From assembly GCA_950295325.1 (NCBI GenBank), contig OX485803.1:19778001-19842000 (forward strand): a stretch of DNA of 64,000 nt. Reading direction: 5' to 3'. Below the pieces are notes generated by a model, which made no database searches, was not told the DNA's origin, and was given only the letters and a program-made list of their open reading frames with translations. The number at the start of each line of letters is the position of its first letter. The first letter of the stretch is position 1. Both the position numbers and the translations under genes were made by a program. Shown in pieces: positions 19,501 to 61,097 of this stretch. This stretch comes from Polytrichum commune (taxonomy: Eukaryota > Streptophyta > Polytrichopsida > Polytrichales > Polytrichaceae).

Positions 19501-19525
19501 GTAAGAACGCAGATGAGGGGAGAGG

Positions 19526-30127: not shown

Positions 30128-33081
30128 CCCGAGATTATGTTTTCGTACATAAAGGTAGCCGCGTGTTCCGCCGTATCGGTCTTCACCGCCTTAGCCTCCG
30201 CCCATTTAGTAAGATATTCGGTCGCAACCACAATATACTTCATCCCTTTCGAAGAATGGGGGTGGACCTCGCCCACGTAGTCGATGCCCCATTTTTCGAA
30301 CGGAACTAGCGGCAACAACACGTGGAGCGGCATCTCCATTCGGAGGTCGTTCCGAGCATAACGTTGGCAAGCGTCGCACTTCCTCACGTAGTCGTGCGCA
30401 TCCTTAAATAGTGTGGGCCAAAAGTAGCCCGCCCTAAGGATTTTTTGTCCAGTAAGTTGGCCCAAGAAGTGTCCGCCGCACGCGCTATCGTGGCACGCTA
30501 TTAGAATGTCTTCAACCTCCGTTTCGGACATGCATCTTCGTAGTAACCCGTTGGCACCTCTCCTAAACAACCTATGACCTACGATAACAAATTGCCTACT
30601 ATTAACCCTCACCTTTCTTCGCTCTTCTTTCGTCCAATCGCCGGGCAACTTGTGGGTTGTTAGAAATTCCACAATGCCCGCGTACCACTCCGGTGTTGAG
30701 GTAACTAAGAAAAGACCATCATCCACTAGCCTATCGTCCACCGGGTTCTCTCCTAGGCTATCCGTCAATCTTGACAAGTGGTCCGCTTGCAAATGCATGC
30801 GACCGGGCTTGTATTCCACCGTATAATCAAATTCACTTAGCAACAAAACCCACCTAGCTAGCCTACCACTTAGCTCCGCTTTGTTAACTAGATACTTAAT
30901 GGCCATATGATCAACGAAGAAGACTACCGGATTACACAACAAGTAGTGTCTAAACTTCTTCACCGAGAATATCATCGCTAGGCATTCGCGTTCCGTGGTT
31001 GAGTAATTCCGCTTGGCCGGCGTCAATTGCTTACTCGCGTAAGCGATTGGTTGATCCTTCTCCATTTCTCCCGTTGGTTGACAAAGCGCGCTTCCCACGG
31101 CCACATTGCTCGCGTCACAATAAACATGAAAAGGTTTGTTCCAATCGGGTGGCCTCAAAATGGGATAAGAGCTCAACTTGTCCCGTAATTCTTCAAAGGC
31201 TTTTTGACACGCCTCCGTCCACTCAAACTTGACATCATTTTTGAGCAAGTGTGTGATAGGCACCGCTATCTTCGAGAAGTTCGGAATGAGCTCTCGATAC
31301 CAACCCACATGCCCTAGTAACTTTGAAATCCCTTTGGAGTTAGTCGGAGTTGCTAACTCACTTATAGCTACAATCTTGTTCGGATCCGGCTCCCGCCCCT
31401 TTGAACTAACGACATAGCCTAGTAACACTCCTTTATTGACCCCCAAGAAGGTTTTGTCCGGGTTTAGGGCCAACCTCATTTTCCTACACCTAACTAACGA
31501 CCCTCTAACACAATGCAAGTGTTCACCCACGTCGCTTTGAGTGCTAAAGTCGTCAATGAATACGGTCATGGACTTATACAATAAGTCGGTAAAAATATAT
31601 ATTACTAACCGTTGGAAAGTTCCCGGGGCGTTACACAACCCGAAGGGCATGACGACCCACACAAACGTGCCCCAAGGTGTTGTGAATGCGGTTTTGTGGA
31701 CGTCTTGGAGTGCTATTGAAATTTGATTATACCCCGCATATCCGTCCATAAAAGTATACCTAGCGTGTCCTCCGACTTCCTCTAATAACGTTGTTATAAA
31801 AGGTAAAGGAAAATGATCCTTTTGAGTATAAGCATTTAACTTCCGGTAATCCACACATACTCTTAACTTCCCGTTCTTTTTCTTCACCAAAACCATCGGC
31901 GACACCCAATCCGTAATCTCGACCGGTTTAAAGAAACTGGCGTTCAACAATCGTTCTAATTCCGCCTTAACCAACAATTGAAGTTGCGGGTTCATTCTTC
32001 TTTCCTTTTGTCGAATCGGTCTCGCTCCTGGAATCAACGGTATACGGTGCTCCACCATCTCTCGCGGAATTCCCTTAAGCTCATCGTAGGACCAAGCAAA
32101 CGTATCGCTAAACTCTTCAACTAAGTCGCTATATTTCTTAACCTCTTCCTCATCTAGGTTAGACCCCATTTTTATTTGGCGGATCTTTCCATTCTTCATC
32201 TTCACGTCCACGTGCCGCCAATCTCCCTCCGATACGTGAGTTTGTTCGTCCTTGTTCCTATACCAATCCGCCGGCACGTTCGGGTAGTCTTTGATATCGT
32301 GCCCCACAATAATATCCGTCGATGTTGTCTTAAAATGTAATGGTTCCTCTAACTTAGAGGCCTCCAAAATAGCTTCGTCGTCTTGCGTACCATCCACGTG
32401 TATCGCATTAATTTCACCCTCGTCTACACTATCTACCCAAGGAGTTAACCCTCCTAAAATCCACTCTTCTTCGGTAAGAACCTCACACGGTTCCAATGAC
32501 AAGTAATCCTCACCTCTAGAACTAAGTCTTTCGTCACTCAAGCATAGGTGGTGAGACATGGTCAAAATATCACACTCCGACTCGGGATACTCTTTTAACC
32601 ATTTGACGTATTCACCATCATCTTTATGGTGGTAAAACTTAGGACCTAAGCTTCCCGAACTTGGACTTACAATTGTGCTTTGACCTTCGGGTTGAACAAC
32701 TCCCACTAAAGCCTCATCAAGGTTATCCTTAACCTTATCCTCAACTACCTCCTCCGATGGTAGATACAATTCTTTCTTCATCCAACTTCCTAGTGACCCA
32801 ATCGACACTACGACTCTATTGTCCTTAGGACCATAAGTGATGGATGGCTTCGCCCCTCCCCAATTTACTATGGCATCCGACATTCTCAACCAAGGCCTTC
32901 CCAACAATATGGGGAATGTATTCTTGTTAGAATGCATCTTAATCACATGGAACGTGACCAAATACTCTTCTCCGCCGGTTGTCATTCTACAATCCTTAAT
33001 AACACTATATTCGTTAAATTGAGACTTTTTGGGCATTTTGAGACATTCACATAAATAAGAACAAGGATAAATGGAACACAT
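30109..33081 (-). pseudogene. Gypsy pol: protease end, RT, RNase H, integrase
   Basis: A 990-residue frame. Residues about 57-75 (PILLGRPWLRMSDAIVNWG) are the C-terminal end of a retropepsin. Reverse transcriptase covers about 375-555 with LRVCVDYRKLN, MPFGLCNAPGTFQR and the active site FIDD at about 508 (YVDD/YIDD variant). RNase H covers about 650-770 (VYCDASNVAVGSAL, TTERECLAMIF). The integrase zinc finger (GGHFLGQLTGQKIL, CDACQRYA) and first catalytic Asp (KWGIDYVGEV) follow. It makes cDNA from element RNA and inserts it into the genome. The protein is broken by a frameshift near 30120, and the N-terminal protease active site is absent because sequence past about 33.09 kb is foreign. Confidence 0.93.
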
Positions 33082-34463: not shown

Positions 34464-35276
34464 TCAAATGAGCTTGTTAAATTTTGCGTGAGAGAACAAC
34501 TCTCTGTACAAATGGTCTCGTGGATCCAAGTATCTCTCGCCTATCGGATTATTCCTAACAAAATTGTTTACAGGTAGTCCGCTTCCCCTGAGCGCCTGCA
34601 GGTATTTACTAAGGTCTAACAAAAATCGGTCCCGGACCTTCTCGACCGTCCACGTAGGGCAAACTATCAAGTTGGCCGTCGGGTTCAACATGTTCTTTGC
34701 GGCGCTGTCGTCCACCATGAGCGTGTTCTCCCGGGTGGGATGGACGTCGTAGGGGACACCTATCAAGGACGGTCGCTGGTCCCAAAAAATGGGCTTCAAG
34801 ACCTTGAGGTATTGGGGGGAAGTGGGGTTGTTTGGTTTTTTGACAATTTTGCCGTCCGGTGTGTACAATATTCTACAGGCTTCCTGTGCTAGGACCATGC
34901 AGGGGAGCTCGATGCCCTTGAAGATGAACTCCACGACTGCATTGGTGTTCTCGGCCTTCATGGAGCTCCACACGACCACCCACCATCGTTGTTGGGCGAT
35001 CTGGAGGAAGGTCCGAAGCCATGGGCGGAGGTGAACTAGCTTGCTCTTTATGAACGTGGGTGGCCCGTCGTAATTCGCGTCCTCGGGCTTGCAAAAGGGC
35101 ACCGTGGGGGTCCTCGGGCAATGAACGCATTGGACGAGGACCCCGTTGAGGTCTAACACCAGGAACCGGGTCTTAGGCGGCAAAGGTGGAGCGGGTAAAA
35201 TGGGGGGGACCATCGCGCTACCTTCCTCGCTTCTTGGAGAGGCCCGGCGGGGAGCCGCGACGCTATGCTCTGATCC
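34464..35276 (-). CDS. Family 2: FCP1/NIF-like HAD exon
   Basis: After the acceptor CTCCACAG the frame runs in phase through MVPPILPAPPLPPKTRFLVL to DLNGVLVQ (HAD motif I), WWVVVWSSMKAENTN (motif II region, as in hhhWSS of FCP1/SCP), and ENTLMVDDSAAKNMLNP (motif III/IV). This is the fold of the FCP1/NLI-interacting-factor phosphatases that act on the RNA polymerase II C-terminal tail. Canonical members have DxDx(T/V); here the second Asp is Asn (DLN), as also seen in a plant DLNG subfamily, so phosphatase activity is doubtful. The stop at 34464-34466 is 4 bp from a strong donor-like GTACGTG. Confidence 0.8.
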   Translation of the reverse strand, partial: GSEHSVAAPRRASPRSEEGSAMVPPILPAPPLPPKTRFLVLDLNGVLVQCVHCPRTPTVPFCKPEDANYDGPPTFIKSKLVHLRPWLRTFLQIAQQRWWVVVWSSMKAENTNAVVEFIFKGIELPCMVLAQEACRILYTPDGKIVKKPNNPTSPQYLKVLKPIFWDQRPSLIGVPYDVHPTRENTLMVDDSAAKNMLNPTANLIVCPTWTVEKVRDRFLLDLSKYLQALRGSGLPVNNFVRNNPIGERYLDPRDHLYRELFSHAKFNKLI

Positions 35277-35702: not shown

Positions 35703-35724
35703 GTTTGGGTCGAGCGACCCAAAC
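35703..35724. repeat. Family 2 palindrome (intron before HAD exon)
   Basis: Arms GTTTGGGTCG and CGACCCAAAC around AG. It lies in the intron between exon 3 and the HAD exon, the same place as 49233-49357 in family 1. Confidence 0.92.
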
Positions 35725-35746
35725 TGAGGAGGTCTCAGTGTATTAC

Positions 35747-37232
35747 CTCTCCCTGGTCATGCCTGGACGCCATGGAAGCCTCCACCGCCTCCGCTTGTCG
35801 TTCTCTCTCGCCACCGCCTTCTCCGACGAGGTCAGCACCCCTATCCTGCAAGTGCTCAGTGTCAAGACCTTGTCCTAACCCAACCTCCGCATGTGCATCA
35901 TGCATAGGTTCATCGATTGGGATAGGAGTAGAAGTATCACCAGGCCCTTGAGGACCTTCAACATCAGGCATGGGTGTGTCTCTTTCAGACCCATGCTGGT
36001 CCATTGAAGACTGAGCGGTCACGGGGTTTGGGTCGGCCGACCCAAACTCTCCTGCACCATGAGATTGGCCTTGTTGCACTGTAAGGGGGGGCGGGTTTGG
36101 GTTGGACGACCCAAACATGTGGGGGTCGTCCTCTTGATGAGGCGGGGGCATCACCAGGGGCGGCCGAAGTGGTGGGGGGGTCAGAGGTCTAGAAGACCCG
36201 GGAAGGCGCCATATATTGGGGTCATCCGCTTGTTGAACCGGCGGATACGGACGGACGTGGGGGGGAACCATGTGCTGAAAGCTGAAGGAGGATTGCGGCA
36301 CGGGTTGCGGAGGAATGTTTTGGGAAGGGAAGCCGGGGGGCAAGTGTGGAAATGAGCCCGGGGGAGCCACCACCAAACCCTGCGCCCACATGCCTTGAAT
36401 CACTTGCGTGATCAAGTCCGCGCTAGATGGAGGTTGGGCCAATGCCCGCAGTCACTCTTGCTCCAATAAGAGAGCCCTTAGCTGTGCCACTTCATTCCGC
36501 ATTGAGGGTTCTTCAGCAGCGGCCTTTTGCAAGCAGACGCGTTGTTCTTCGTCCCTTAACCTCTTCTCGTTGGCTTCTTGCACGGTGAGGACTTCCGGCT
36601 TCACCTTCACCATCCCTGCGAAGGCACCTGGAGAGGGAGGGTCCGACCTGAGCCGTTTGGCGAGCTCCATGTCGTCCTCGTCTTCGCTGCTAATGGCAAT
36701 TGTCTCCTGGATGGCATAGTCGCCATAGAGTTTCTTGCCTTTTAGTTTCCTCCTCTCCCTGAACGCGGCAGTCGCGTCCCTGGAGTACATGTCGCGGGCA
36801 TCATCAACCGTCAGGACGGGCACCAACTTACTTTGTGGAGTTGCTGCCCGCATTGCCTTCTTTCGTTGAGGGGCTTCGGATTCCTGCGTGTAACCCGTTG
36901 CTCCTTCTTCGACCTCCCCTTCGACCTTCTGGTCCTCTTGTTCCTCTTGTTCCTCCTCCTCCTCCGCCTTGTCACCTGGCCCCCGAGATGAGGTACCCGG
37001 ATGCAATCCGACGAGTGGTTCAGGTGCTCCAACTGGAGCCCTCGTGGCAAATTCTGCAGGGTTGACACGCCTTGCCATATCCATCGGGTTTTCACCCCCC
37101 TCTACAATCTCCTCAACGTAGCTCCCCGGGATCCAATCGAGGATGTCCATCTTCTTGGCTAGGGATTTTTGGGTTTTGTAAAATTGAAGATCATTGTCCT
37201 CTATATAGGAGTACATCTTCAAACCCAACATC
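35747..37232 (-). pseudogene. Family 2: methyltransferase-tail and acidic/Pro-rich exon
   Basis: The exon starts after AATGTGCAG with MLGLKMYSYIEDNDLQFYKT, which in the joined protein follows FGGSKPIYAGM, so the pair resembles (F.GSGTT..AA..LGR..xGxExD) of N6/N4 DNA methyltransferases. Then comes a basic/acidic linker (EEEEEQEEQEDQKVEGEVEE), a coiled coil (KRLRDEEQRVCLQKAAAEEP), and a Pro/Gln-rich tail. An in-frame TGA at 36454-36452 (probable CGA ancestor) breaks it; the frame continues beyond as LRALAQPPSSADLITQVI. The donor CCAGGGAG/GTAATACAC at 35747 resembles the family 1 donor at the same place. Confidence 0.65.
36026..36116. repeat. Two family 2 palindromes inside coding exon
   Basis: Copies at 36026-36047 (centre GC) and 36095-36116 (centre GA, one arm mismatch) lie in the Pro-rich coding part, reading FGSADPNP and FGSSNPNP. 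Family 1 likewise has a palindrome in the equivalent exon. Confidence 0.9.
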
Positions 37233-37326
37233 TGCACATTCCAAAAACAACTTGGATCAGAGATATGCTCATTAAATTACACCAAGAACAAGAAAAAAAA
37301 ACAATAAGAGAAAACCAATACAAAAG

Positions 37327-37384
37327 GTTTGGGTCGGTCGACCCAAACCATCACTGCGTCAAGTTTGGGTCGCTCGACCCAAAC
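37327..37384. repeat. Two family 2 palindromes (intron in methyltransferase motif)
   Basis: Copies at 37327-37348 (centre GT) and 37363-37384 (centre CT) lie in the intron between PIYAGM and MLGLK, the same intron that holds a family 1 palindrome in copies A and B. Confidence 0.95.
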
Positions 37385-37413
37385 TATAAACCAACTATTT
37401 TGAAGTTACTTAC

Positions 37414-38755
37414 CATGCCAGCATAGATAGGTTTGGAACCCCCGAAGACGTTGAAAATAGAATCCCCTCTTCTTGTCAGGGCCCTCAATATCCGTAAGTA
37501 GAACTCCATCCGCAGCTCATCGGCAGTATAGTTCGCGTACTTGGCCTCGTCGTAGAGGCTCTTGCTGGCACCCAACCCCTCTGGTACTTGGAAGAGTTTT
37601 TCCATCCGGTTTATGGGGTGGTTGTCGACCTTCAGCAAGTTCGCTTTGTACACAAAGTACAAACACAATACGTCGACAAGCTTTGTTTTTTTGTCCTTCA
37701 ACGTCGAGTAAGACCCCTCCGCCGGTGCAACAATGTAATGAGATTTAGAGACAGCATAATCAGGTTGCAATTTCCTCGCAATCTCATATACCTGCTCCGC
37801 CCTCCTATCCTCGACTATCCACAACCAAATGTCGACCTCCCTAAATTTGGGACTTGCATAGTCGACGAACTTTGATAGGAAGGGCTCATAGAAGGGGGTG
37901 CTCATAGTACCCTCAAACGAACTTCCAGGAATGTTCCTGAAGTCTATCATTCCAAAGGGGAATCGATCCCCAGCATTCGTCCTTATCGTCTTGCGAGCCT
38001 CAACGCCAGGCCACCCCTGGATTTTTAGAGGCTCCAGGGTGACAAGGTTGAAATGCGCGTCCCCCTCAAAACTGACAATTCTCTTCTCCTTTATGAAATT
38101 CGAGAAGACACGTGCTGTGTGATCGGGAAGCGCCCGATTCTTCCCACCTTTCACCAGCTTGGACTGTAGGAAGTCTTCCCCCGCTTCCCTGATGAGAGCC
38201 GCCATAGATGCACTTGTGAACTTGTACTCCGCCTTGAACGCTCTCCAGTTTGCGTCGTGGACCTCCCCATCCACAAAAATGTTCATTTCGGGGACTATCT
38301 TGTGCAACTCTTGGACGATGGTGTTCTTCTTCTTCTTATTCTCCGTCCATTCCTTCATGGTGTAGCATGAAGGAACGAATGATTTAGGCTTGGAGAAGAC
38401 TATCTTTGGGTGCGCCCAACATTTCTTTGCCGTGGGCTCGACGTGCAGGATGTGCATGGCCGCCTTCCCCATGTCTGTCTCCGAAAGCCCTTGGAGTTAT
38501 CGAAAGAATTCTCTCATCAAAGGCTTGAGCTGCTTGAAACGTGCGGTCGAGTTGAAAAGCAGGCCTGTGTCGGGATCCATCAGGTCCCCCGTCTCGTGCT
38601 TCTCGAACACGTTCTTCCACTTCAACCAGACATGGTCGGATGCTGTTATCAAATAAATTTCTCCTCGCAACTCGTTATATTTCTTTTGCTTGTGACTCGC
38701 ATTGTCAATGGAGGAGAACTTATTGATCATTTGGTACTTGAAGTACTGCACATAA
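37414..38755 (-). pseudogene. Family 2: methyltransferase-like exon
   Basis: The exon runs from TTATGTGCAG (38755) to the GTAAGT donor (exon end 37414). It encodes DHVWLKWKNVFEKHETGDLM and LMDPDTGLLF, aligned with DIWRKWERIFKDYESGDYV and VDPKTGALM of family 1, then FREVDIWLWIVEDRRAEQVY, and ends LRALTRRGDSIFNVFGGSKP IYAGM, split by an intron before LGLK. Its order (middle domain, then motif-I-like F.GS at the C-terminal side) fits the permuted beta-class adenine/cytosine-N4 methyltransferases. No clear DPPY motif is seen. An in-frame TAA at 38499-38497 (CAA or similar before) interrupts the exon; the same frame continues as LQGLSETDMGKAAMHIL. Confidence 0.6.
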
Positions 38756-38772
38756 ACATGGAAACGCATGTT

Positions 38773-38773
<1 letters not shown>

Positions 38774-38808
<35 letters not shown>
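38774..38808 (+). repeat. (TA)n microsatellite
   Basis: About seventeen TA units inside the intron that also holds a palindrome. Confidence 0.9.
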
Positions 38809-38812
<4 letters not shown>

Positions 38813-38864
38813 GTTGGTTGGACATACGCTTATGTGGAAATTGTGAATATTAACCCCTATAAGA

Positions 38865-38886
38865 GTTTGGGTCGATCGACCCAAAC
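38865..38886. repeat. Family 2 palindrome (intron after ParB exon)
   Basis: Perfect arms around AT, 9 bp inside the intron from the donor at 38895. Same intron position as 45574-45595 and 12479-12500 in family 1. Confidence 0.95.
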
Positions 38887-38895
38887 CATACTCAC

Positions 38896-40215
38896 CTCCC
38901 ACTTTGGATTCTTGTCCTTCGCATTCTCCCTCTCCTTTGGAGGCCTGCCGTAGAACTCCCACACCTCGCGTGACACCATTATGTTGCGAATCCAAGAAGC
39001 TTGGTATGCCCGTTTCTTGTTCCCCATATTGAAGTAGCGGGAAATGTCGCTGAGTCTGGTTTCGTCATCTGACCACACCACCAAGGCCTTCCACACCTTC
39101 AACTTCTCTTTCTGGTGATTGGGATCATCCCACTCGGTCATAAGTTGGATTTTCTTTGACGCTTCCACGCTGTGCTGACTGTCAATTAGCCAAAAATCGC
39201 CTTTCTCAATTGACTGCCACATATCTGGGGTGGGCATTCGTTTGTGCCCCTGGGGCATGACTACGATAGTTTGCCTATCGTCTTTGAATTGCTCGCTCAC
39301 TATCTGGGCGATTATCCAATCAACATAGGCATCTTCCTTTGCCCGAACACACTTTTCAGGCGGTGCTAAGTGGCACTGAGCAATATTGACGTCAAACTTG
39401 AAATCCCCACCCATGAAGAAACAATGAGAGCACTTGGTCATGAAATTGTTCACGATCTTTTGGATTTCAGTTGCATCAACCTCATGCCCAGGCTTTGGCA
39501 TGCGCAGCTCCGGGGAAACTGGCTCATCAGTCATAACTGATAACGATTCTCGAGCCCTTTTTGAAGGCGTTGTCTGTCGACTGTTTGAGGGCGTCGGTGT
39601 CTCACTATCAGCCGGTGTTGTAGTTCTTCGTGAGTCAGCTGGAACAGCCCGCGGCTTCCTCACTGCTTGAGGTCTCGACGAGCCTGCGCCTTCTTCGGTT
39701 GTGGCCTTCCTCCTCACCGGTTGTTGTGATTTGGATTTGCTCTGTTGAGCCTTGTTTAAGGCATTGATTGTGTGTTTGAGCTTCGTAAACCTGGTTGCCA
39801 CCTTCGTGTTTGAAATGCTTGCATCTATGAAGATAGACTCGGGTTTAATAACGTCTGGCTCAACGCAAGAGTCCTTAACATACAAGGGATCAAACGGCTC
39901 GGAGAATTGATGCATGAACATATGTGCAGTCTGCATTGCAGAATTCTCGAGAATGACGTCGACATAGTCACCTAGAGCCTGGACTGACGCCACCTCCCAC
40001 CCCGACAGAGTTGCCCATGTGTTTTGATCCACTGTCCCAACTTTGACCACAAAGAGGATTTTGAACTGCGATGCCTTAACAACTTGGAGGGACCACACAA
40101 TGACGAGCCCGTCCTTAGGCACGTAAGACTCATCTTCAGGAGTTTCGTGTTCCTGCCATACCACATCTGGTGCCAGCATGAACCATCTTTCTCCAGGTCT
40201 CTTTTTTGGGGCCAT
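38896..40215 (-). CDS. Family 2: N-terminal and ParB-like exon
   Basis: The exon begins exactly at an ATG (40215) preceded by the acceptor CTCTCTTGCAG, so a 5' untranslated exon must lie upstream. Domains in order: N-terminal region (residues about 1-130), Ser/Thr/Arg-rich linker with basic patches (about 165-240), then a ParB-like domain with DRQTIVVMPQGHKRMPTPDM and FWLIDSQHSVEASKKI, matching VNGQHT in family 1 and the G/DxxHRxxA motif of ParB/Srx folds. It ends at NPKWE/GTGAG, the same intron position as FKKWK/GT in family 1. No stop interrupts this 440-residue exon. Likely nuclear DNA-binding protein; sites may be the family 2 palindromes. Confidence 0.75.
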
Positions 40216-40240
40216 CTGCAAGAGAGTCATACCACAATTA

Positions 40241-40485
40241 GTTTCGGTCGGGCGACTCAAACTATTAAAATTTTAAAATGCTTATGTCTAATAAATGTCA
40301 ATAATATATGGGGTTTGGAATTAGCTTGATCGTTTAATATGAATTTTGAATTAGTTGGTATCTTGGGTTTGGGTCGCTCGACCCAAACCAGGTCTTAGGT
40401 TTTGGTCGCTCGACCCAAACCATGTTTTCGGTTTGGGTCGCTCGACCCAAACCAGGTGTTGTGTTTGGGTCGCTCGACCCAAACC
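40241..40485. repeat. Family 2 palindromes, tandem array with exact 32-bp period
   Basis: Copies start at 40368, 40400, 40432 and 40464: a period of exactly 32 bp (22-bp palindrome plus 10-bp linker, linkers CAGGTCTTAG, CATGTTTTCG, CAGGTGTTGT), all with CT centres. A decayed copy (arms GTTTCGGTCG/CGACTCAAAC) lies at 40241-40262, 25 bp upstream of the splice acceptor. The array lies in the 5' leader intron of the family 2 gene. Confidence 0.95.
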
Positions 40486-40870
40486 AGTTTCCGTACATTC
40501 AAACAACAAAAATTAGTTGTATATTATATGTATTTTCAAGTAATTATTGTTCTTTCAATTTTTGATCGCTAATGATACGGTGCTTATTATAAATGTTTAT
40601 TAAATAATTCTTATATTATAATAAGATAGTATGCAATGCTTATGATAATCATAAGAAAAATATATTTATGCACGAAGGAAATTACCTGTTCTTGCAAGCT
40701 TTACAAGAAGTTGTTCTTGCAAGCTTTATAAGAAGTTTTTATTGCAATCTACTGTTGCAATTTGAATCTAAGACGTAGTTGTGCTCTAATTCCAGAAGCA
40801 CTGAAGACTCTGATGAATCTTAGAGCGCTGTACAGACTCTTTGAAATACACATTCAATCTCACAACATTC
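40486..40870. other. AT-rich leader of family 2 gene
   Basis: No gene recognised. A short duplication of CTTGCAAGCTTTA.AAGAAGTT lies at 40691-40738. On the minus strand this is upstream of the family 2 start codon. Confidence 0.4.
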
Positions 40871-41405
40871 TGAATCTATAGCTATCAAGACTCTTAACAT
40901 CATAAGGTCTCCAAACTCTGAATCTCACATACTCAGAACCCTCTCCACTCTGTTGCTAATTCCTTCTAGCTATGACAATCCGAAGCCCCTAAATCCTCAA
41001 CAGTCAACACTCTGAATCTCCGACCTTCAACACTCTAAACTCTCAAACCTTCATGCTATTAACACTCTGAAGCTCCTCAACACTCAACACTCTGAATCTC
41101 CGACCCTCAACACCCTAAACTCTCAAACCTTCAAGCTATTAACACTCTGAAGCTCCTAAATCCTCAACACTCAACACTCTGAGTTTCCAACCCTCAACAC
41201 CCTAAACTCTCAAACCTTGAAGCTATTAACACTCTGAAGCTCCTAAAGCCTCAACATTCAAGACTCTGAATCTCTCACCCTCAACACCATAAACTCTTAA
41301 ACCTTCAAGCTATTGACACTCCGAAGCTCCTAAACCCTCAACACTATGAATCTCACAACGCTCAACACTCTGAAACCCACAAACTATCAATACTCTGAAA
41401 GGTAA
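40871..41405. repeat. Minisatellite of about 85-90 bp
   Basis: Four to five units share AACACTCTGAA, TCTCCGACCCTCAACACCCT, AAACTCTCAAACCTTCAAGC and TATTAACACTCTGAAGCTCC. It lies upstream of the family 2 gene. Confidence 0.85.
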
Positions 41406-44400
41406 AACAAATAGAGTAATCTCAAATGATTCTATAACATCTATGCCACGAAACTACAAAAACAGAATGTGGAACTGAGCTTACTGTCACGCTCTAGCAA
41501 GAGAAAGGAGGGAGGAAGAGAGTGTGAAGGAACGCGTCGGTTCGTGGAGGCGGCGCTTCCAAGAGCAGCGCGGAGTTGCACTTGGCGCGGAAAGGAGAAA
41601 AAGACCCGAAAAGGGCAACCTTTCGGGTTTTGTTCTCCTCGGGAAAAGGCCCCACAACACGGCTTTAGGGCGCCCATCGGATTAGGGCACCCGCGCAAAT
41701 AGGGTTACGGGGCAACCCTAATCCCTAAACCCTTACCGCACTACCGTATCGGCATTTAATTTTTTCCGAAAAAAGTACATAGCCTAAGGTATTGCACAGT
41801 TTTTTCAAATTTTCAAGGTAGTTGAAGTTATTGTCTCTTAAGCCGTTTAGGGACTTTAGATAAAGAACACAATTCATTTGACATTCAACTATGTCATCTT
41901 AGTTGAACATCTTTCCCAACTCCGATTTTCAATGTATTGCATTGAATGGTCCTTAATTGGAATGCTCAAAGGCAATTATACGGTTTAATATTATAAGTAT
42001 GATAACCATTTACATGGTTTGATAATATGAATACATATTGTAATTCCTATGTTGGTTAATGTTGGAGGACAAGGCTATAGCCTATCATAGATCCCTTAAT
42101 AAGTAGCATTACACTAACTCAATTACACAAGTTTATGTATTGTCAATGATTGTAATAAGGAATTAGGCAAAATGTATTGACAACTTGTCATAGTTTTTTT
42201 TGTCAAAAACAAAAAAAATGGTTGTTTGATATATATCATGAAACATTAATATATTTATATGGAAGTTGATATTTAAAGTAAACACGAGAAGCATAATGAT
42301 TACAAATGGAATCCCTACACCCCCATGAGTTCAACATCATTTGAAGCCATTCAAGTAAACACTTTATTGGTCAATGGTCGCTCCACATACATTAAACAAC
42401 ATATATTAGGGTTTAGGGTTTAGGGTTTAGGGTGAGTTGACATAGGTAAAGCAAGTTCAAATAAAAACAATAAATTGGGACTTGTTGCACCACAAACCAT
42501 AAATGATTGGCACATATGTCAAATGACGGGGCCTCATGGCTTGTAAATTTAAATACAAATGTTTTTAGTCATGACAACATTTTAATTAAAGGATGTGGAA
42601 TATGGTTGTGTGGATGCTTAGGGTTTAAACTCACTAAAGCGAACATGTGATCTAGTGGTCATAATGAGGTCATCCTTAGTACGTGGAGACTAATAACAAG
42701 GTTATAGTACATACAATCTTTATCATGTGAATATGTTATTTGAAATAATTACACATTATATACTAATGAAAGGTACATTTGATTTTGTGAATGTTAATTA
42801 TGAGGACATACATTCCCAACTTTATATGTTTTGCTCATAAACATTGCTAAAATTGAAATGTCTTTGAGGATAGGTTCAAACATCCTTGGAAACATGAACT
42901 AGAATGTGACATTTGTGCTTGAAATTTCATTAATGACTTCCACAAAGGATATATGTAGGTGCTAGCTGCTCATATTACTCTAGATGAGCTTTTTTTTTTT
43001 GCACAAAGAAGTAAACGAAGGGTGGGCAATGATAGTCATATAGTATCTTTAGTGTTTTTTAGCACTCACCACATTTGTAGTTAATGTTTCGTGTTTTTTA
43101 ATACTCACCATAGTAGTAATGCATATTGAGGCACTAGTTTTTTGATTCTTTTGATTTCAGTGGTTACAATTTTGCTAAGCTCGTTTGTTTTATGTTGCTT
43201 TCTAGTTTGGTTCAAATATGCTTATGTACATCACATATGTCCACGCCAAACCCTAAACCCTAAAACCTTTAATGTCCATATGAGCAAATGCCCAAGTTAT
43301 ATAAGTACTATAGCATGCCAAGAATTAGGCTACATTTTGACTTAGAATAGCCTATGGGGTACTCGAAATGAAGACCAAGTAGTTTTTTCTACTAAAAGGG
43401 TCTCTTAAAATCATATTGAGTACATAAATAGCCCCTAAACAAATACTTGGTTAACGCACATGATTGGTCACAATTGCATGCTTGAGAATGGAGTAACGTT
43501 GTGTGCACACTTTACAAATGACATATTGTGAGCTTTATTAATTTTTTTCATTTGCACAATGTCATGTTTGTTTTTTGTTGTTAATATCATATACGTCGTC
43601 TTCTGATGGTCTGAATAGCTACTTTAACTGTTGTATTTAGTGACTTTTACCATATGGATTAAACGATGTTGCCACATTTTTGTCTAAATATTTGTTAAAA
43701 TATATTATAATGTTTGAGTTCAAGTACAGTAATATCTTGAAACATAATTTATTATGTTCCTTAGATGGATCAAAGGGAAGTTGTTGGGAATGATTTTGTA
43801 AATCACATATCTGATATTCATATCCTTTAATGCACTTGTTAAAATACATCCCGCTACTACCCTTCCTACCAATGGTGGAAGTCATATTCACTTAAAAAAA
43901 TAAAAAACCGCTAATTTTTCTCAAATAGTGACAATACATATTTATTCTACACAGAAAATATGTCAACTCAAGTAACTTCATGGTTGGGGCACCGAAGAGC
44001 AGGGAATAAAATTAAAGGGCTATTACCCTTATTTTGGGGTCAAGCCCTTCACATTCCCTTCAAAATATTTTGCAACCCTTCAAAAAGGAAGGGGTAATTT
44101 TCTGTAAACCCTTCAAAATGAACGGCAAAGAAAAGTAACCGGTCCCTAATAATACTTTGTGCCATGCTAATTGCTACATACAAACAGACAACATCTTCAA
44201 AAAAGCAGCCGCCCCATCAATGATGGTGGGCTGGTGGCATTGTAACAAACCATTCAAATTTATTCCATGCCGAGCCGCCACGCTAAGTACACATTTTCTA
44301 TTATAAACACTAGGCGGGAAAGTATGTCAGAAGGTTTCAATTACCGGCTAAAGGGGAATCAAGCGGGAAAGGTATCCAAGAGGAAGCAAGGGAGCGGATG

Positions 44401-44629
44401 CGGACAGTATAAAGGGCCAGCCTCCCCGAAAAGTCGGTCTTTTTTGCTCATCTCCCGCTCCAAAAATTGTAGCAAACTCTCTCACTTGGAGCTCTATTGC
44501 AAGGTTAGAGCATGCTCATAGTCATGAGCAAGCAATCACAACATCCATCCACGACTGTTATTTCCGTACTAAGCCTATATTTAGTAGTCACTATATTCAC
44601 GCCTCATTATACGGCGGAATTTACGGATA
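41406..44629. other. AT-rich stretch without recognisable genes
   Basis: No gene supported. It holds a telomere-like run (42408-42432), a degenerate one (43250-43266) and a GC-richer block at 41480-41740 with GA-rich sequence that could be a family 2 upstream region. On the right it leads into family 2 palindromes at 44630. Confidence 0.5.
42408..42432 (-). repeat. Interstitial telomere-like repeat
   Basis: AGGGTTT repeated about three and a half times, the opposite strand orientation to 23484-23507. Confidence 0.9.
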
Positions 44630-44800
44630 GTTTGGGTTGACCGACCCAAACCTATCCCCACAGGGGGCAGGTACTTGGGTTGACTTAGAGCCCACCTCCC
44701 CTACATAGTTTGGGTCGGTCGACCCAAACCCTTTCCCACATATTGCAGGTATTAGGGTGGACTCGGAGTCCATCCCCCCCTACAAGGTTTGGGTCGGTCG
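44630..44800. repeat. Family 2 palindrome array ending in a half site
   Basis: Full copies at 44630-44651 and 44708-44729, then GTTTGGGTCGGTCG at 44787-44800, whose right arm is replaced by family 1 sequence. Unit length is 78-79 bp with related spacers (CCCCACAGGGGGCAGGTA and CCCACATATTGCAGGTAT). This is the border between family 2 and family 1 DNA. Confidence 0.9.
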
Positions 44801-45528
44801 GACAACCACTGATTGTCCAAGACACTGACGGCCAGGATGTTGTCTCCAAGAGAGGCAAGAAGAAAACACCCGAGGATAGTCCATTTCTTGAACTCGAGAA
44901 GATTCCCAAGCGATCAATGCATGGGCCTCCAGACAAATCGGTTGGAGACAGGTTGATGGATATGGAGTTGTTCAAGAACAAGTACCAAAGGGTGTGGATA
45001 TTCGGTGAAGGCGTGAATGGCTATGTCAATATTGACAATATAGAGCGGGGAGATGCAGGGTATAATTGCCGACCCATATCCGAGGCGCATTTAAAGGAGA
45101 TCAAGACATGGTTATTCAACTATGCCTTCATTCCGAAGATTCATCCCAACTTCTTGACAATCGTTCCTTCGGATAGGCGAACTAAACCATTCAATTTTGA
45201 GGAGGTGAAGGACAAATCGTTCCACGTGGTAAATGGACAGCACACGTTAGCAGCCTGTCTCGAGTATGTGAATGACCCTAGCAGCACAGATGAGGTGAAG
45301 AGGTTTTTCTCGAAATGGCCTTGTAATGTGGTCTGGGCCCCTGAAGGTGATGACGACCCTCTGTTCCACCTCTCTGGTGTTCTGAACCTGGATAGTGAGT
45401 ACAGAAAGCACTTTCCGTCATTTACGGAGTGCATTCAGCACGCTAGGAAGACCTGGATTAGGCGAGGAAGACCTGACCGAACTGTACGCGAGAAGGCCAG
45501 CAACACGGAAGCTTTTAAGAAGTGGAAG
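44801..45528 (+). pseudogene. Family 1 copy B: ParB-like exon, 5'-truncated
   Basis: Homology to copy A begins at GGACAACCACTGATTGTC, so the N-terminal exon is lost. The exon encodes SKRGKKKTPEDSPFLELEKI, YQRVWIFGEGVNGYVNIDNI, the helix ISEAHLKEIKTWLF and FHVVNGQHTLAACLEYVND with the ParB-type G-x-x-H motif, then a KTWIRRGRPDRTVREK basic segment. It ends at AAGTGGAAG/GTATTT (45528), phase 0. ParB-family domains bind palindromes (parS) and, in canonical members, CTP through a GERRxRA motif that is modified here. No stop interrupts this exon; the MITE and 4.1-kb insertions of copy A are absent, showing their empty sites. Confidence 0.8.
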
Positions 45529-45573
45529 GTATTTTTCAAACTTGTGACTTTTGAATTTCTCATTTCTGTGACT

Positions 45574-45595
45574 CCCACGGGTGTTCACCCGTGGG
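45574..45595. repeat. Family 1 palindrome (copy B, intron after ParB exon)
   Basis: Perfect arms with TT centre in the intron 45529-45648. Confidence 0.95.
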
Positions 45596-45648
45596 CGACT
45601 ATCATGTTGTTGGTGATTGCTAGAAATACATGGAGGTTTTTTTCATAG

Positions 45649-46941
45649 AGATTGATACATTGCCGGTGTTTGATACATGCATTTATTACGTGCGTCATGT
45701 GGACGTTCCGCGTGGAGAAGGAGACCAACCTGATCATGGAGCACGTCTTGCCTGTATTGAGCGATGACATATGGAGGAAGTGGGAGCGGATATTCAAGGA
45801 TTACGAGAGTGGTGACTATGTAGACCCGAAGACCGGAGCTCTTATGAAAGAGACAAAGGGGTTTAAGTCGAAAAAGGTGGTCAAGAACGACCTGAAACAA
45901 TTTCGGGGCTTGACAGAGATGGAGCTCGACATGGCAGCGCATCAAATCCTCACCACCAGAGATGGAGAGGAGCACCCTCGACATACCTTGAAGACTGTGC
46001 GCGATTGGGCGATGAACAGGAAAAAGAAGAATGAAACTTATATCGCGATGGCACAGTGTCTAGACCCGACTCCATTGTACATTGTCCACATCGATCAGAA
46101 AGAGACCATTGATCGTGATTGTTGGAGAGTATGGAAGTATGCGAATAAGTTTGGTAAATTCCAGCGATAACGACTTGTAGACTTGCTTGGAGCGGAATAC
46201 CTTCTTGGCGCTATGAACCCCACAAGGAAGAGAGTACCTATTCCGGACCGGTTTAAAGAAGGAGTGAGGAACATTTTAGGTACACATAACACCGAGGTTA
46301 CACCCGAGCATGTCGTGTTGTCTATTGACAACAACTACAAGATCAGTAGTGGGACAGTGCTTGCACCAGTCCTGCACGCGTACATGGACACAAGGTTTCT
46401 CCCCGGAGTCCAGGCGGGAAAAGACACTGGGAGGCGTGTGAAGGAGTGTATGAATTCCACTCTGCAAGGTCTTCGTCGTGATTTCCCAGGCATTTTAAAC
46501 TCCCCCCAATTGTGGACTGTGATTTCCGAATATCCGGATCGGCATTTCATTCACAATGTACTGAAGACGCACCTGCCGAGCAACGTCAGATTTTGTGACG
46601 CCTTATACTATGGCACTAAAGAGGAGAAAATTGCATCTCGCGATTGCTTCTTCGAATCAAATGCTCTTCGGGTTACAACCTGCATTTTTCCCAATAGGGG
46701 CGAATCAAGCTTGGAGGTGGCTGTGCGGCTCTGTGGAGGCCGGAAGATGTTGGACGTCCATGACCCGGGGCGATATAAACGTTATTCAGTGAAAAGGGCG
46801 TATTCCAATGAGGAGGCCAAGTCTTTATTCAAGGGGGAGTTGAGGATGCAGACCTACATAGATATCATCAAGCCTTCATGTCTTGAGGGGTCTTTTTTCC
46901 TCAATATTTCTAGAGGCAATAAGGCGCACAAAGTGGCACAT
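45649..46941 (+). pseudogene. Family 1 copy B: methyltransferase-like exon
   Basis: Acceptor TTTCATAG, donor CAT/GTAAGT. It encodes EHVLPVLSDDIWRKWERIFK, VDPKTGALMKETKGFKSKKV, YIAMAQCLDPTPLYIVHIDQ and, at the end, KGELRMQTYIDIIKPSCLEG and FFLNISRGNKAHKVAH, matching family 2 KYANYTADELRMEFYLRILR and FNVFGGSKPIYAGM by order. A TAA at 46168-46170 interrupts it where copy A has GAA (FQREQLVDL). Apart from this the exon is open. By position this is the middle and motif-I part of a permuted DNA methyltransferase fold; catalytic residues are not evident. Confidence 0.65.
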
Positions 46942-47046
46942 GTAAGTAATGAGCATCTTTTCCCCTAAGTGGTTCTTGAATTTCCGAGTATTATCATTGG
47001 TTTGGATGGTGTATTGGATAATCTAACCATAAACCAGGTTGGGAGG

Positions 47047-47068
47047 CCCACGGGTGAACACCCGTGGG
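47047..47068. repeat. Family 1 palindrome (copy B, intron in methyltransferase motif)
   Basis: Perfect palindrome, AA centre, extended by GG/CC, in the intron 46942-47248. Confidence 0.95.
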
Positions 47069-47248
47069 CCTAGACATCCATGTGCTTTATATCCACCTGG
47101 TTGATAGCCACCTGCTTGATAGCTTTCCTGACAATTAGTTGGTTGACAATCAACAAGTTGGGACTATTGGTTTATTGATTTTCTTTTCGCTTTTGGATAT
47201 AGACTAATTTGATTGAGAAGTTTTTTTCTCATTCCTTGGTTTTTGCAG

Positions 47249-49021
47249 GCCTTGGGTATGAAGGTGGTGAATATTGTGCCGGCAGAGATGCTAGAGGTGG
47301 CGAAGACGAAGATGATTGCCGCAGTTGACTGGAGCATACAAAGGTGGAATGAGGAAGGAAAATTCGCTGCCCAGAATTTGGAAGAGGAAGAAGGTCGTAT
47401 CGATGTGGATTCCATCATTGAGCGCGAGATTGGAAGAAAACGTGCGAATGACATAAATGAAGAGGACGTAGAAGAGGAGGAGGAGGAAGAGGTGGAGGAG
47501 GAAGATGACCCAGTTGTTGTCCTAGGGGAGTCTGCGGAGGAAGAGGAAGTGGCCGACGAAGAGGAAGAGGAAGAGGAAGAGGAAGAAGAGGAAGAGGTGG
47601 TCATGGACGACGCACTGGCGGAGGCCATGGCTGAGGTCATGGCAGAGGTGGAGGAGGAGGCCTTCAATTACAAGGCGTCAGCCATGGCGGAGGCCTCTTT
47701 GGAGGCCATGTCCCCGGAGCAGGTTCCCCACGGGTGTTCACCCGTGGGGGAGGGGGAGGGGGAGGGTGAGGAGGAGCGGCAAGAGGATGCTTCCAACTTA
47801 GAGGAAGTTGGTCGTCCACAAGCCGAGCACAGTGTCCATCACCCTGTGGGATCTTTCTCGTCTGGGATCCCATCACCCGGCCGCGGGTTTGCACAATTTG
47901 ACACATCTAGACGAAGTCAAGAACAACTAGATGTTCAACCTATGGAAGAATATGAGGAGGATGAGCGTCCGCAGTCAGCTAATCCTGCTGCAAGGTCTGC
48001 ATCGAAACCGACTGCAAGAAAGAAAATGAAAGCTCCTCGAAAGGGAAGGTCATCTCTACGTCCTGCTAGAGTTGGAGATCACTCGCGGTCTTCGGAGGCA
48101 ACGGAGCATTCTGGTCTTTATCGCGAGGTTGAATCTGGCCAAGCGGATGTTCCGCGGGATGCAATCATGTCTGAAGCTGTGCATGTTGAAGGGACAAACA
48201 CAGATTTGAACGTCAGCTCACCTGTTGAGGACGTTGCCGCTGCCGTTCTCGAGGTGCTAGGACATGGGCGATCAAATCGTGATTCACCTGGTGTTGTGGT
48301 TGCAGAAGAGCCTACTGTAGCGGCACCATCCAATGAAGCAGAGGAGGTTATTCGAACCGAAGTCATATGCTTGGATAGTGATGACGATGTGCCCGAAAGA
48401 TGCGTAGAACTAGACGTGAGGGTGAAGGTGAGAGATCGAGTTCCACATCGGGTTCGGGGGACGTTTGCTGACTACATGACGGATGATTCCGAGGATGAGG
48501 ATTATGGGAAGCCTGGGTACAACAGAGTGAAACTCAACTTTGTTGATGACCCTCAACCGGTGTTTGTTGGGAGACCTGACATGGGCAAGGAATCGGATGG
48601 GAAGGACAAGGTGCATTTTGCCCCATTTGTGGACAAATACTTGGTAGATGTGCCCGAGAACGTGCGATTGAATCTTGCGCATTTGTACAAGTCGTACGAC
48701 TATCACAAGATGTTCGCTTATCTCTCCACACCAGCGTTTTGTGAAGCAGTGAAGGTGAAACATATTCTTCATGCCGCTGCATTAAAGAAAATGAGAAAGA
48801 GATGGACAGCGTTCGAAGCTCCCAAACATCGTGATGAACGAGGTCAATTCGCGGGGTCCTCGGCCGCTCAAGCCGGCAGTGTTGTGGACTCTACGTTGGA
48901 GATCATTGACATTACTGGAGTGCCAGAGTCTCCAAGGAGGGAAGTCGATGTTGCAGTTGCGGAGTCCTCAAGCCCTCATGTCGAACGTGTTGCTGAGGGT
49001 CAACCGGCATCGTCCGAAATG
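47249..49021 (+). CDS. Family 1 copy B: methyltransferase-tail and acidic exon
   Basis: The exon begins after TTTTTGCAG with ALGMKVVNIVPAEMLEVAKT and is open for 591 codons to GAAATG/GTAATA. A run of Glu-rich sequence (about residues 60-140) includes the palindrome-encoded PHGCSPVG. Basic AT-hook-like patches (ARKKMKAPRKGRSSLRP) follow, then a conserved C-terminal part with YMTDDSEDEDYGKPGYNRVK and VPENVRLNLAHLYKSYDYHK. This is the intact version of the broken exon in copy A. Probably nuclear; the acidic segment could recruit chromatin or polymerase partners, but that is inference. Confidence 0.7.
47727..47748. repeat. Family 1 palindrome inside coding exon (copy B)
   Basis: Perfect palindrome, TT centre, followed by a run of GGGGGAGGGGGAGG. 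It is translated as part of the acidic region. Confidence 0.95.
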
Positions 49022-49107
49022 GTAATACATACTCCCTTTCCAATGCTATATTGTGTTTGGCGGTGGAAGCAAACTCGTCAAGATTTCTAAAAGTGTCTTT
49101 GCAACAT

Positions 49108-49198
49108 GTGTTGGTTGCGGCAGAACGGGATGTCATTCCACCGAGTTCTCATGACGACCCTGCACATGGTGGGGATCCCCCCCTAAGCCAAGCTCAAG
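49108..49198 (+). pseudogene. Family 1 copy B: small exon with lost acceptor
   Basis: The same 91-bp exon as 8979-8889 in copy A (VLVAAERDVIPPSSHDDPAH), with donor CAAG/GTATCA kept, but the acceptor dinucleotide AG changed to AT (GCAACAT). Splicing in this copy would skip or misuse the exon. Confidence 0.5.
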
Positions 49199-49232
49199 GT
49201 ATCATATATAGTGTTATTTGAATGCAATTGGT

Positions 49233-49357
49233 CCCACGGGTGAACACCTGTGGGACCACCTGTTTATACTTTTCAATTTCCATACAAATTGTTATCTCTC
49301 GAGTAATATTTATATAAGGGACTTTTGATATTGTGCCCACGGGTGTTCACCCGTGGG
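49233..49357. repeat. Two family 1 palindromes (copy B, introns before HAD exon)
   Basis: Copies at 49233-49254 (one mismatch) and 49336-49357 (perfect). Confidence 0.93.
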
Positions 49358-49617
49358 AGAATATGGGTTTGAGCGTGTGGATCTCATAAGTCATGTGTGC
49401 ATGTGGTCACAGGTCATACAGCCACTGCCGGAATACCACCTTCGGTACGATATTTTCCTCGATCTCGCAAAACTAATCCATAAATGTGGAGGCATTCTTT
49501 TATCTTGCATACTCATGTGTACCCAACGTGTTGTTTCATTCGATAAAAATCATGTAGAATATACTTTTTCCTTAGATAGAAATTCTTTACAATGACTTTC
49601 AATTTTGTCATCGCCAG

Positions 49618-50400
49618 ATCCTCACCTCTCCAACCACTGTTGTCCATCGGAGAGAGAAGATATGGTTAGTGCTGGATGTGAACGGGATCCTGGTGAGGTC
49701 GACAAAGTGCGACAATGTCAACACCAGGAAGACTCTTGAATCACAACATAGCCCTCAGATAACTGGGGAGTTGGCTCCACTCTTTCTCCCATATAGTGCC
49801 CTCATACCTAGGAGAGGACTGGGACGCTTTCTGCGTTTTGTTCTCTCAAACTTCCATGTTGTCATCTGGTCGTCGAAGCTTATGAAGAATCTTCAGCCAA
49901 TTGTCCGGCACTTCTTCAATGGTTGTAGACATCCAGAGTATGTGTTTGGGCAAGAATTGTGTCACACTCTGAAGGATGAGAGAGGACAAGTTCTTCCTAG
50001 TCCTATGAATGTTGATTCAAGCTTCTTCATGAAAGATCTGTGCGCATTTTTTGAGTGGAGCCGGACGCATCCAGTGCCGCATACGAAGCAACCCAGTCAT
50101 AGGACTACATTACTTGTTGATGACTCCCCTTACAAATGCATCCCAAACCCTCCTGGGAGCTACATTAACCCTGTACCATTTATGTCAAACCAAAGCTTGG
50201 ATACTCTGCATAGTTACCTGCAAAGGCTCTTGAGTTCTCAACAGTATGTGCCAGATTTTGTGGGGAGCAACCCTTATCCATCAGGACAGGGACCCTTCAA
50301 TCTAGAGCTGCCAAGTTCTCTGATTTATAAGCAATCATTAGTTAGACATAAAATACTGACTTCTGCCCGTATGGTTCCAGAGGCTCAGATGTTAATGTAG
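49618..50400 (+). CDS. Family 1 copy B: FCP1/NIF-like HAD exon
   Basis: After the acceptor CATCGCCAG the frame reads ILTSPTTVVHRREKIWLVLD into VNGILVRST. HAD motif I is DVN rather than DxD, followed by RRGLGRFLRFVLSNFHVVIW and SSKLMKNLQPIV (the WSS motif) and TTLLVDDSPYKCIPNP (motif III/IV). It is the FCP1/SCP-type fold that in active members removes phosphate from the RNA polymerase II tail. The exon is open to TAG at 50398-50400, the same stop as in copy A. The residue that normally acts as general acid is Asn, so a binding rather than catalytic role is likely. Confidence 0.85.
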   Translation: MLTSPTTVVHRREKIWLVLDVNGILVRSTKCDNVNTRKTLESQHSPQITGELAPLFLPYSALIPRRGLGRFLRFVLSNFHVVIWSSKLMKNLQPIVRHFFNGCRHPEYVFGQELCHTLKDERGQVLPSPMNVDSSFFMKDLCAFFEWSRTHPVPHTKQPSHRTTLLVDDSPYKCIPNPPGSYINPVPFMSNQSLDTLHSYLQRLLSSQQYVPDFVGSNPYPSGQGPFNLELPSSLIYKQSLVRHKILTSARMVPEAQMLM

Positions 50401-50642
50401 ATTCCCTATTGGGGCCGCCTATAGTGCACATTTGCACTATCGGTACATTGTATTTGAAATGAGTGGATCTGAAACTTTGTTGCCTTTCAACTTCATTTGA
50501 AACTTGTTTTGGTTTTGTGGATTTTCTTCATGCAAACATGTCATGGTCATGAATGTATCTCACTGGGAGTCTACTACTTTGCAACACTGCGGTGTTAGAG
50601 AATACCCGACTATTTCCGACCACAGTGAATGTCTGGCATTGT

Positions 50643-50664
50643 CCCACGGGTGTTCACCCGTGGC
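50643..50664. repeat. Family 1 palindrome (copy B, after HAD exon)
   Basis: It lies 242 bp after the HAD stop; counterpart of 7433-7454. Confidence 0.95.
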
Positions 50665-53853: not shown

Positions 53854-55337
53854 TGTGAGGCCAAACCCACCACCCTTAAGCGTCCTAGTCCGGGTGATGG
53901 TGTTGAGAATCACATGTATTGTTTGTATCGAAAGAATGATCTCTTTGCATCCAAAGGCGTTCATGTCATTTTGAATCACTTTGTTTATTAGTGGTAGCCT
54001 CTTGGCTTTGGGCCGCGTTGGCCTTCTCAAGAGTCCAACCGGCGGCCTTGGCAACACAAGCTCTCAAGGATATTCCCCTTTGGCCTTTGATTATCCTCTT
54101 CGTTACTTGAACCTTGCTAGAGTCTTCCGCTTTCTCCGTCGGCCTAACCTCCTTTGTCTCGCCAATGTGGATGTCCTCCGCTTTCTCCATTAATAATGCA
54201 AGTGATTGATTTTTACCAAAGAGGACGTAAGTGTTAAAAAACACTACCTCAATGGTTACTCAAAAATACAATTGCCTTAAAGGCCACACGTGAATCTTAA
54301 CTAGCTTAATGAGCCTAATTACTTATCTATCACTAATCACAACCGAATGTTGTTTCTGCCTCATGTGCCAATACCCACTTTCGGATTAGTTTGCTAATCA
54401 CCTAGTCCACCCTTGGCCGATCGATTACCCGGTCTCGGTGCAGCCTGGTACCCGGTCTCGGTGCAGCCGGTTACCTGGCGGCCTGGCCAACTTCGGCTGC
54501 CCAGCAGCTTAGCCTCTTTCGGCTCAGATTTAGACACAATCTAACCCGGACCTCCTAGCAAGGTCCTCAACCCACACTAATCAAGGGCATACTAACCACA
54601 CCTTAAGTCACACTATAATGTGCACCCTTAACTACTAATCGGATGTTTGTTTCTAATTTCTTTTTGTGTTTTTTTGGCTACTCAACTAACATTACTCCCT
54701 AACCTTACTAAGACTAACTAATCCACACACGTGGCTTTCAAGCTCTAAGAGCTAGCCCCCTTTAGAACACTTGAGAGAGAGAGCTTAACTAATTAACTTC
54801 ACTAAAAACTAATAACCCACACACGTGGCTCAAGCTCTTAAGAGCTTGCTCCCTTGAGAGCGCTTGATGGAGAGAGAGGTAAATGAGAGAAAAAACACCT
54901 TAAGTAGCAAAGAGGGAGAGAGGGAGAGAGGGAGAGAGGGAGAGAGGGAGAGAGGGAGAGAGGGAGAGAGAGGTGAGGATAGGGTGAGAGGATTAGCACC
55001 TCCAATCACAATCCCTTAACCTTCTCCTCCAAAGTAGGGACTAATCCCCATCCACCAAGCTTCCTTCTTCCTAAACTAACAAGGTGGATCCAAAAGTGGG
55101 CATTTAACCCGCGGAGCTCACCTTGCCTCACCTTACCCCCTACTCACATAATCAAGGCATCATGTTATTGAAATCAAACCTTGAAATAACCACTCAACAC
55201 ATTCTAATGCCTAAACTTAAATCCACACCACACTTCACTCTTTTTATGTTTTGTGAATAATCATAACACATCAAAGTCAAACTAAAATTGGTTTCGAAGA
55301 GTTAATCACCACATGTGGGCACCATTTTGGGCTCACA
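53854..55337 (-). repeat. Gypsy 5' LTR
   Basis: Partner of 25092-26559. It has two more GGGAGAGA units (about 54909-54970), which explains its 16-bp greater length. Confidence 0.95.
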
Positions 55338-61008: not shown

Positions 61009-61097
61009 GTTGGTTGTATAACCCTAATGTGCATCCACTTTCCCACAGGTGCACCCGTGACAACACTCTGGCCGTACCCCTCCTATACGGCCAGTTT

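Follow-up and report, generated by a model that had tools for sequence, protein, structure and literature searches.

Two gene families with different palindromes at matching places

The 64-kb stretch of Polytrichum commune DNA analysed here (contig OX485803.1, positions 19,778,001 to 19,842,000, hereafter the window) contains genes of two families, f1 and f2, which encode ParB-like, methyltransferase-like, acidic and HAD phosphatase-like parts. Each family is accompanied by its own 22-bp palindrome, and these palindromes are very probably recognition sites belonging to the respective lineage. Gene models gave four exons and phase-0 introns in both families (exon 1 of the copy f1B is 5'-truncated), and f1 and f2 were collinear yet distant, with 31% identity in exon 4 and 22% over 121 residues in exon 1. 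The family-1 palindrome is CCCACGGGTG-(AA/TT)-CACCCGTGGG and the family-2 palindrome GTTTGGGTCG-NN-CGACCCAAAC; allowing a single deviation from consensus, 24 and 12 sites, respectively, were found in the window. Exact non-simple palindromes of 10-2-10 form numbered 24, compared with none (37 of 40) or one (3 of 40) in Markov-1 controls. Thirteen of them belonged to family 1, nine to family 2, one was a family-1 variant (51494) and one another palindrome (63087). Eight 10-kb control stretches yielded one in total, of a family not met elsewhere.

The f2 gene is on the minus strand. Exon 1 (38896-40215) encodes an N-terminal beta domain and the ParB-like domain, and four sites with a 32-bp period form an array upstream of it (40367-40484). 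A further site starts at base 10 of intron 1 (38865-38886). Exon 2 (37414-38745), methyltransferase-like according to weak DNA-methyltransferase fold matches of a relative, contains an in-frame TAA and is followed by two sites in intron 2 (37327 and 37363, together 37327-37384). The acidic, proline-rich exon 3 (35747-37231) has an in-frame TGA and encloses two sites, one at 36026-36047 and one with a single change at 36095-36116. Intron 3 carries one site (35703-35724) before exon 4 (34464-35276), the HAD/NIF phosphatase-like exon (PF03031, E 3.8e-16). A second f2 array, with a 78-79 bp period, occupies 44630-44802; its members are two sites (44630, 44708) and a half-site (44787), and the segment 44277-44731 matches the f2 copy e606 at the nucleotide level.

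The f1 gene is present twice, as one inverted duplicate (f1A and f1B, 94.8% identical), so the two copies are not independent and were counted once. In f1B, on the plus strand, the 5'-truncated ParB-like exon 1 (44802-45528) is followed by a site in intron 1 (45574-45595), the methyltransferase-like exon 2 with an in-frame TAA (45649-46941), a site in intron 2 (47047-47068), the acidic exon 3 (47249-49021) with a palindrome inside it (47727-47748), two sites in intron 3 (49233, with one change, and 49336; 49233-49357) and the HAD/NIF-like exon 4 (49618-50400; PF03031, E 5e-11). The in-frame stops mark the window copies of f2 and f1B as decayed. f1A, on the minus strand at 7428-13572, carries sites at 7433, 8740, 10345, 11007 and 12479; two f1 arrays (18615-19689) lie upstream of its exon 1 (17693-18286). 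Between these parts, an insertion of about 4 kb within exon 1 (13573-17692) carries an open reading frame (ORF) of 694 aa (14228-16309). Family 1 also has a site beyond the HAD exon, at 50643-50664 in f1B (one change) and at 7433 in f1A; the homology of the two copies stops at 50669.

The initial annotation had placed both palindromes at equivalent positions of the two genes, and sites in exon 3 and in each of the three introns, the last of which precedes the HAD exon, were recovered in both families. The upstream array it had also described exists for f2 and f1A, but not for f1B, whose 5' part is lost at about 44802 and which has a family-2 array upstream instead.

The f2 gene is an accessory gene of a DNA transposon

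The f2 element was identified as a DNA transposon of 17.0-18.6 kb with 28-bp terminal inverted repeats (TIRs) and 4-bp target site duplications (TSDs) in all three complete copies. These are located on contig C1 at 610757-628840 (18,084 bp, TSD AAGT), 1174918-1193533 (18,616 bp, TSD CCTT) and 2112817-2129768 (16,952 bp, TSD ATAA). The TIR is AACACTATATTCGTTAAATTGAGACTTT; both ends are perfect in e606 and e2113, and three mismatches separate the ends of e1171. A DUF7869 gene is divergent from the ParB-like gene in each of the three copies, with f2 arrays upstream of both genes (PF25273, Pfam 2e-41 in the one copy scanned; the other two share 93-96% identity with it across most of the gene). The ParB-like/methyltransferase-like/HAD gene is an accessory gene of the transposon, and the DUF7869 protein is probably its transposase. 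No mention of DUF7869 was found in the open-licence literature, preprints excluded. The 4-bp TSD agrees with that of Sola1 elements. MULE-type elements, VANDAL among them, have a 9-bp TSD, which f2 does not share, and the f2 partner gene encodes DUF7869.

In the window, the same 28 bases form the HAD-side end of the element (33001-33028, plus strand) and lie inside a Ty3/gypsy polyprotein ORF. The second f2 array corresponds in position to the DUF7869-side array of the complete copies and is cut at 44802, where f1B sequence starts inside it; the DUF7869 half is therefore absent from the window element. That f1B opens within a family-2 palindrome of this array suggests recombination or insertion at the array.

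The f2 sites listed in the three complete copies keep at least 2.6 kb from either end, and a function as transposase end sites was set aside since they lie too far from the element ends. More broadly, the palindromes might serve the DUF7869 protein in transposition or its regulation, and one of the two arrays does stand directly upstream of the DUF7869 gene in all three copies. We consider this unlikely: transposases usually bind the ends of their elements at subterminal positions, unlike those of the sites found here, and the palindromes line the other gene.

Sites keep place and sequence among f2 copies

When the window copy and the three complete copies were compared, the first intron-1 site started at intron base 9-10, the intron-3 site at intron bases 22-23 and the two exon-3 sites at 1116-1120 and 1185-1189 in all four. 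Sites were confined to introns 1-3 and exon 3, and exons 1, 2 and 4 were free of them in every copy; the range used for exon 4 of the window, set by a match to the f1A HAD exon, was too wide and was still free of f2 sites. Between three copies, the sites were 95-100% identical in intron 1 (78% for e606 versus e2113, in which the number of sites differs), 94-98% in intron 2 and 91-96% in intron 3, hence 91-100% in eight of nine comparisons and 78% in the ninth. The remainder of introns 1, 2 and 3 was 21-36%, 31-47% and 61-66% identical, respectively, and exon 1 was 75-77% identical.

The constant position of the first intron-1 site, which lies within 10 bases of the intron start also in the copy of a third lineage (f3, described below), would suit hairpins acting in RNA near 5' splice sites to govern splicing or stability of the accessory transcript. 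We regard this explanation as improbable, as arrays are also found outside the coding region, ahead of both genes, the intron-1 site of f1 is 45 bases into the intron, and the base pair next to the two-base centre is kept although a hairpin with a two-base loop would not need it. A dimeric DNA-binding protein as reader remains the preferred explanation.

Palindromes in the introns of relatives

Protein searches returned 18 relatives of f2 and 52 of f1, and an alignment search gave 49 matches, including four of the third lineage (source labels lgn, jgi, ena and, for a few, ncbi). Because many of these ORFs read on into the intron, the intron DNA could be constrained from the residues. In a simple three-frame motif search of the read-through ORFs, 12 of the 18 f2 relatives had f2 motifs and none had f1 motifs, whereas 7 of the 52 f1 relatives had f1 motifs and none had f2 motifs; most motif-free ORFs stop shortly past the exon. 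Codon-compatible 10-2-10 palindromes in the tails numbered 46 in a first scan (3-11 in 20 shuffles) and 22 in a second (0-8 in 30 shuffles), both counts including a few plainly spurious fits and the first scan having missed some ORFs (e.g. P0062 and P0064).

All 11 intron-1 tails of f2 relatives were compatible with an f2-type site. For intron 2 this was so in 8 of 9 tails in the first scan, the missing one being only 8 residues long, and in 11 of 18 tails of at least 8 residues in the second; the misses were P0082 (18 residues, spurious fits only) and tails of 9-12 residues. In f1 relatives, 6 of 7 intron-1 tails of at least 20 residues (first scan) accommodated an f1-type site, compared with 0 of 6 intron-2 tails of that length. 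Among the latter only P0028 is long enough, as the intron-2 site of the window lies 106 bases into the intron, and this tail contains the near match LTGEHPW.

Some sub-lineages differ visibly in both arms. The residues reveal such changes in P0011 (GTTTGGGCCG, two sites) and P0009 (GTTTCGGTCG), and for GTTTCGGGCG the left arm is seen in P0015 and P0087 and the right arm in P0012, which by our reading of their sequences would form one clade. In P0019 the right arm of CCCACGGGCG is visible, and in the head of P0032, judged by eye and unscored by script, ACGGGCG fits either arm apart from an outer-end mismatch. For P0008, P0018 and others, one arm is silent at the codon level, so a change of both arms is merely compatible; P0008 has canonical sites next to variant ones. 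Searches of IMG/VR viral contigs and of GTDB genomes confirmed no relative, and no f2 palindrome was found in IMG/VR.

A third lineage with a third palindrome

The four members of f3 are 35-39% identical to the f2 relative P0013. Tails of P0107, P0110 and P0111 gave the palindrome (C/T)ATTTACGAACG-NN-CGTTCGTAAAT(G/A), and no palindrome was present in the 17-residue tail of the fourth member, P0104. As this sequence had been deduced from translated intron tails only, searching the genome for it tested a prediction: the core TTTACGAACG-NN-CGTTCGTAAA occurred at 2,909 exact sites in the window's own genome (408 Mb; control 0). The f2 palindrome occurred at 9,231 exact sites (control 0). Clustering was judged on about the first hundred places of each, on contig C1. 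The DNA of one f3 locus, L031, bore out the deduced palindrome: an array of ten f3 sites directly precedes an exon with 35% identity to f2 exon 1, another f3 site lies at the start of intron 1, and part of exon 2 is 75% identical to P0111. None of the L031 palindromes with at most one mismatched pair was of f1 or f2 type. This copy is disrupted by insertions, which carry other kinds of palindromes.

Comparison with known systems

A working parallel exists in Arabidopsis, where the VANC proteins of VANDAL transposons bind short motifs that recur in the introns and upstream regions of their own family and remove methylation; the tandem repeats differ between related elements and the protein evolves with the motif (PMC5735166, PMC10398659). 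The VANC21 motif has 9 bases (YAGTATTAY), whereas the sites described here are 22-bp dyads with a putative protein-DNA link, and the ParB-like/methyltransferase/HAD architecture and the element type are unlike those of VANDAL. The closest set of parts is found in the giant Sola1-1_Ec32 transposon of Ectocarpus, likewise a large DNA transposon, in which a gene for a ParB-like/DNA-methyltransferase protein lies on the strand opposite the transposase; binding and modification of the encoding transposon by this protein were suggested there, and for green and red algae the article cites Iyer 2011 and Petroll 2025 (PMC12477816). Its consulted sections mention neither binding sites nor palindromes nor a HAD domain, in contrast to the own-lineage palindromes of f1, f2 and f3. 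VANC would thus be the nearest functional analogue and Sola1-1_Ec32 the nearest in composition. No report of palindromic own-sites of ParB-methyltransferase transposon proteins was found in titles and abstract openings of the open-licence literature, preprints excluded.

A putative self-recognition system

A changed sequence at a conserved place in related elements suggests that each element may encode a protein recognising its own copies. We propose that the elements form a family of large TIR transposons, each of which would carry two divergent genes, one for DUF7869 and one for the ParB-like/degenerate DNA-methyltransferase-like/HAD phosphatase-like protein, with palindrome arrays before both and further sites along the accessory gene. 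For the methyltransferase fold only weak DNA-methyltransferase matches were obtained, for a relative, and the model was too weak. A homodimer of an element-encoded protein would bind its lineage's own 10-2-10 dyads and, like VANC for VANDAL, keep promoters and body of the element active against host silencing. The ParB-like protein, whose domain matches the ParB N-terminal fold, is the probable reader. That its effect is anti-silencing or activation we regard as an even call, and the combined scenario of a transposon-encoded, probably ParB-like, protein with VANC-like action on its own sites may be true or false with about equal chance. Protein and sites would change together, so that lineages would become orthogonal.

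Several observations weigh against this scenario. No ParB match by sequence was obtained in Pfam (32 members) or among PDB sequences, and the equivalent of the CTP-binding box, which in ParB usually bears an Arg, is DGQHS in f2 and in the f3 copy and NGQHT in f1; Q347 and H348 are invariant across 32 sequences, with a consensus lacking Arg there. Bacterial ParB-parS shares with this system the fold and the arrays of palindromic targets; differences are the lacking Arg, the greater length of the sites relative to parS and their location on a eukaryotic transposon. The reader could also be the DUF7869 protein or a host factor, and terminal inverted repeats of f1 were not detected in the two zone pairs compared. 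The ratio of CpG to other transitions was 1.71 in the f1 copies (p 0.003), an excess that speaks against f1 being free of methylation; the other values gave no clear direction, with 1.13 in the f2 gene, 0.85 for e606 versus the window and 1.81 at the DUF7869 end (p 0.06), other repeat pairs having too few changes. The CpG observed/expected value was 0.87 in the f2 gene, 0.35-0.63 in the eight control stretches and 1.13 in one gypsy stretch. In 140 f2 sites, 7 changes fell on the 4 CpG positions and 26 on the 16 others.

Site and gene are, moreover, not strictly one to one. At the loci L015, L016 and L002, f2-type sites with a 32-bp period occur alongside CCCTGTGCGT palindromes. A search of L010, L015, L016 and L017 for exons of f1, f2 or f3 found none. 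L015 and L016 have another gene with a GNHR motif, by which it looks ParB-like; in L016 (1255-7029) the f2-type arrays and CCCTGTGCGT palindromes surround this gene and a MULE/SWIM-like one. Genes of L016 and L017, which we take to be MULE/SWIM-like, had no Pfam match and f2 sites between their ORFs. More than one type of element hence employs, or at least carries, f2-type sites, and the arrangement of L016, L002 and L015 may represent a second one. At 131-1926, L015 also contains an array of GGTGTCTCGG-NN palindromes with a period of about 139 bp, a further palindrome family.

Such loci, the very high copy numbers and the large tandem arrays would be expected of selfish repeats spreading, or kept alike through conversion, without a protein reader. 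This seems improbable, since sites of different sequence occupy equal places in three gene lineages, exceed their surroundings in identity (91-100% versus 21-66% in eight of nine comparisons) and keep both arms while the centre is free. Clustered sites can recruit host factors, for silencing or activation, but three unlike sequences at equal places would require three host factors tracking element lineage, which makes a host reader equally doubtful.

The co-evolution of a DNA-binding protein, with the ParB-like domain as candidate reader, and its own sites, as read in the initial annotation, is partly supported. The kept places, the three lineages with their own palindromes and the changes in both arms, seen in some relatives, agree with it, and f1 and f2 motifs did not cross among the read-through ORFs of the relatives; the f2 sites beside CCCTGTGCGT palindromes without f1, f2 or f3 genes do not, and the expectation of one palindrome per gene lineage holds only loosely. 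A prokaryote-type ParB-methyltransferase may, tentatively, have been turned into lineage-specific transposon self-recognition with palindromic addresses, perhaps spreading clamp-like and marking whole elements; orthogonal protein-site pairs evolving through changes in both arms would be part of this speculative picture. Accessory genes of this kind in giant transposons had been suggested to bind their own element, the sites being unnamed in the consulted sections (PMC12477816). Candidate sites are now available in thousands of copies and, in three lineages, with different sequences, which makes self-recognition directly testable by in vitro binding; f1, f2 and f3 offer a natural set of putative specificity-switched protein-DNA pairs.

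Other features of the window

Farther out from the f1 copies, the family-1 palindrome with its outermost base altered on both arms (TCCACGGGTG...CACCCGTGGA) was observed at 51494 and at position 4470 of locus L030, both places resembling flanks of the f1A/f1B duplicate. No f1 gene adjoins a family-1 array at 61042-61811 (sites 61098-61790), either within the window or in the 8 kb that follow. The window contained no f3-like site, and Rfam (gathering threshold) and tRNA scans of it gave no matches. Repeats were represented by gypsy domains and a weak DUF4216 match, and the segments 25092-26559 and 53854-55337 form a young repeat pair with 98.5% identity.

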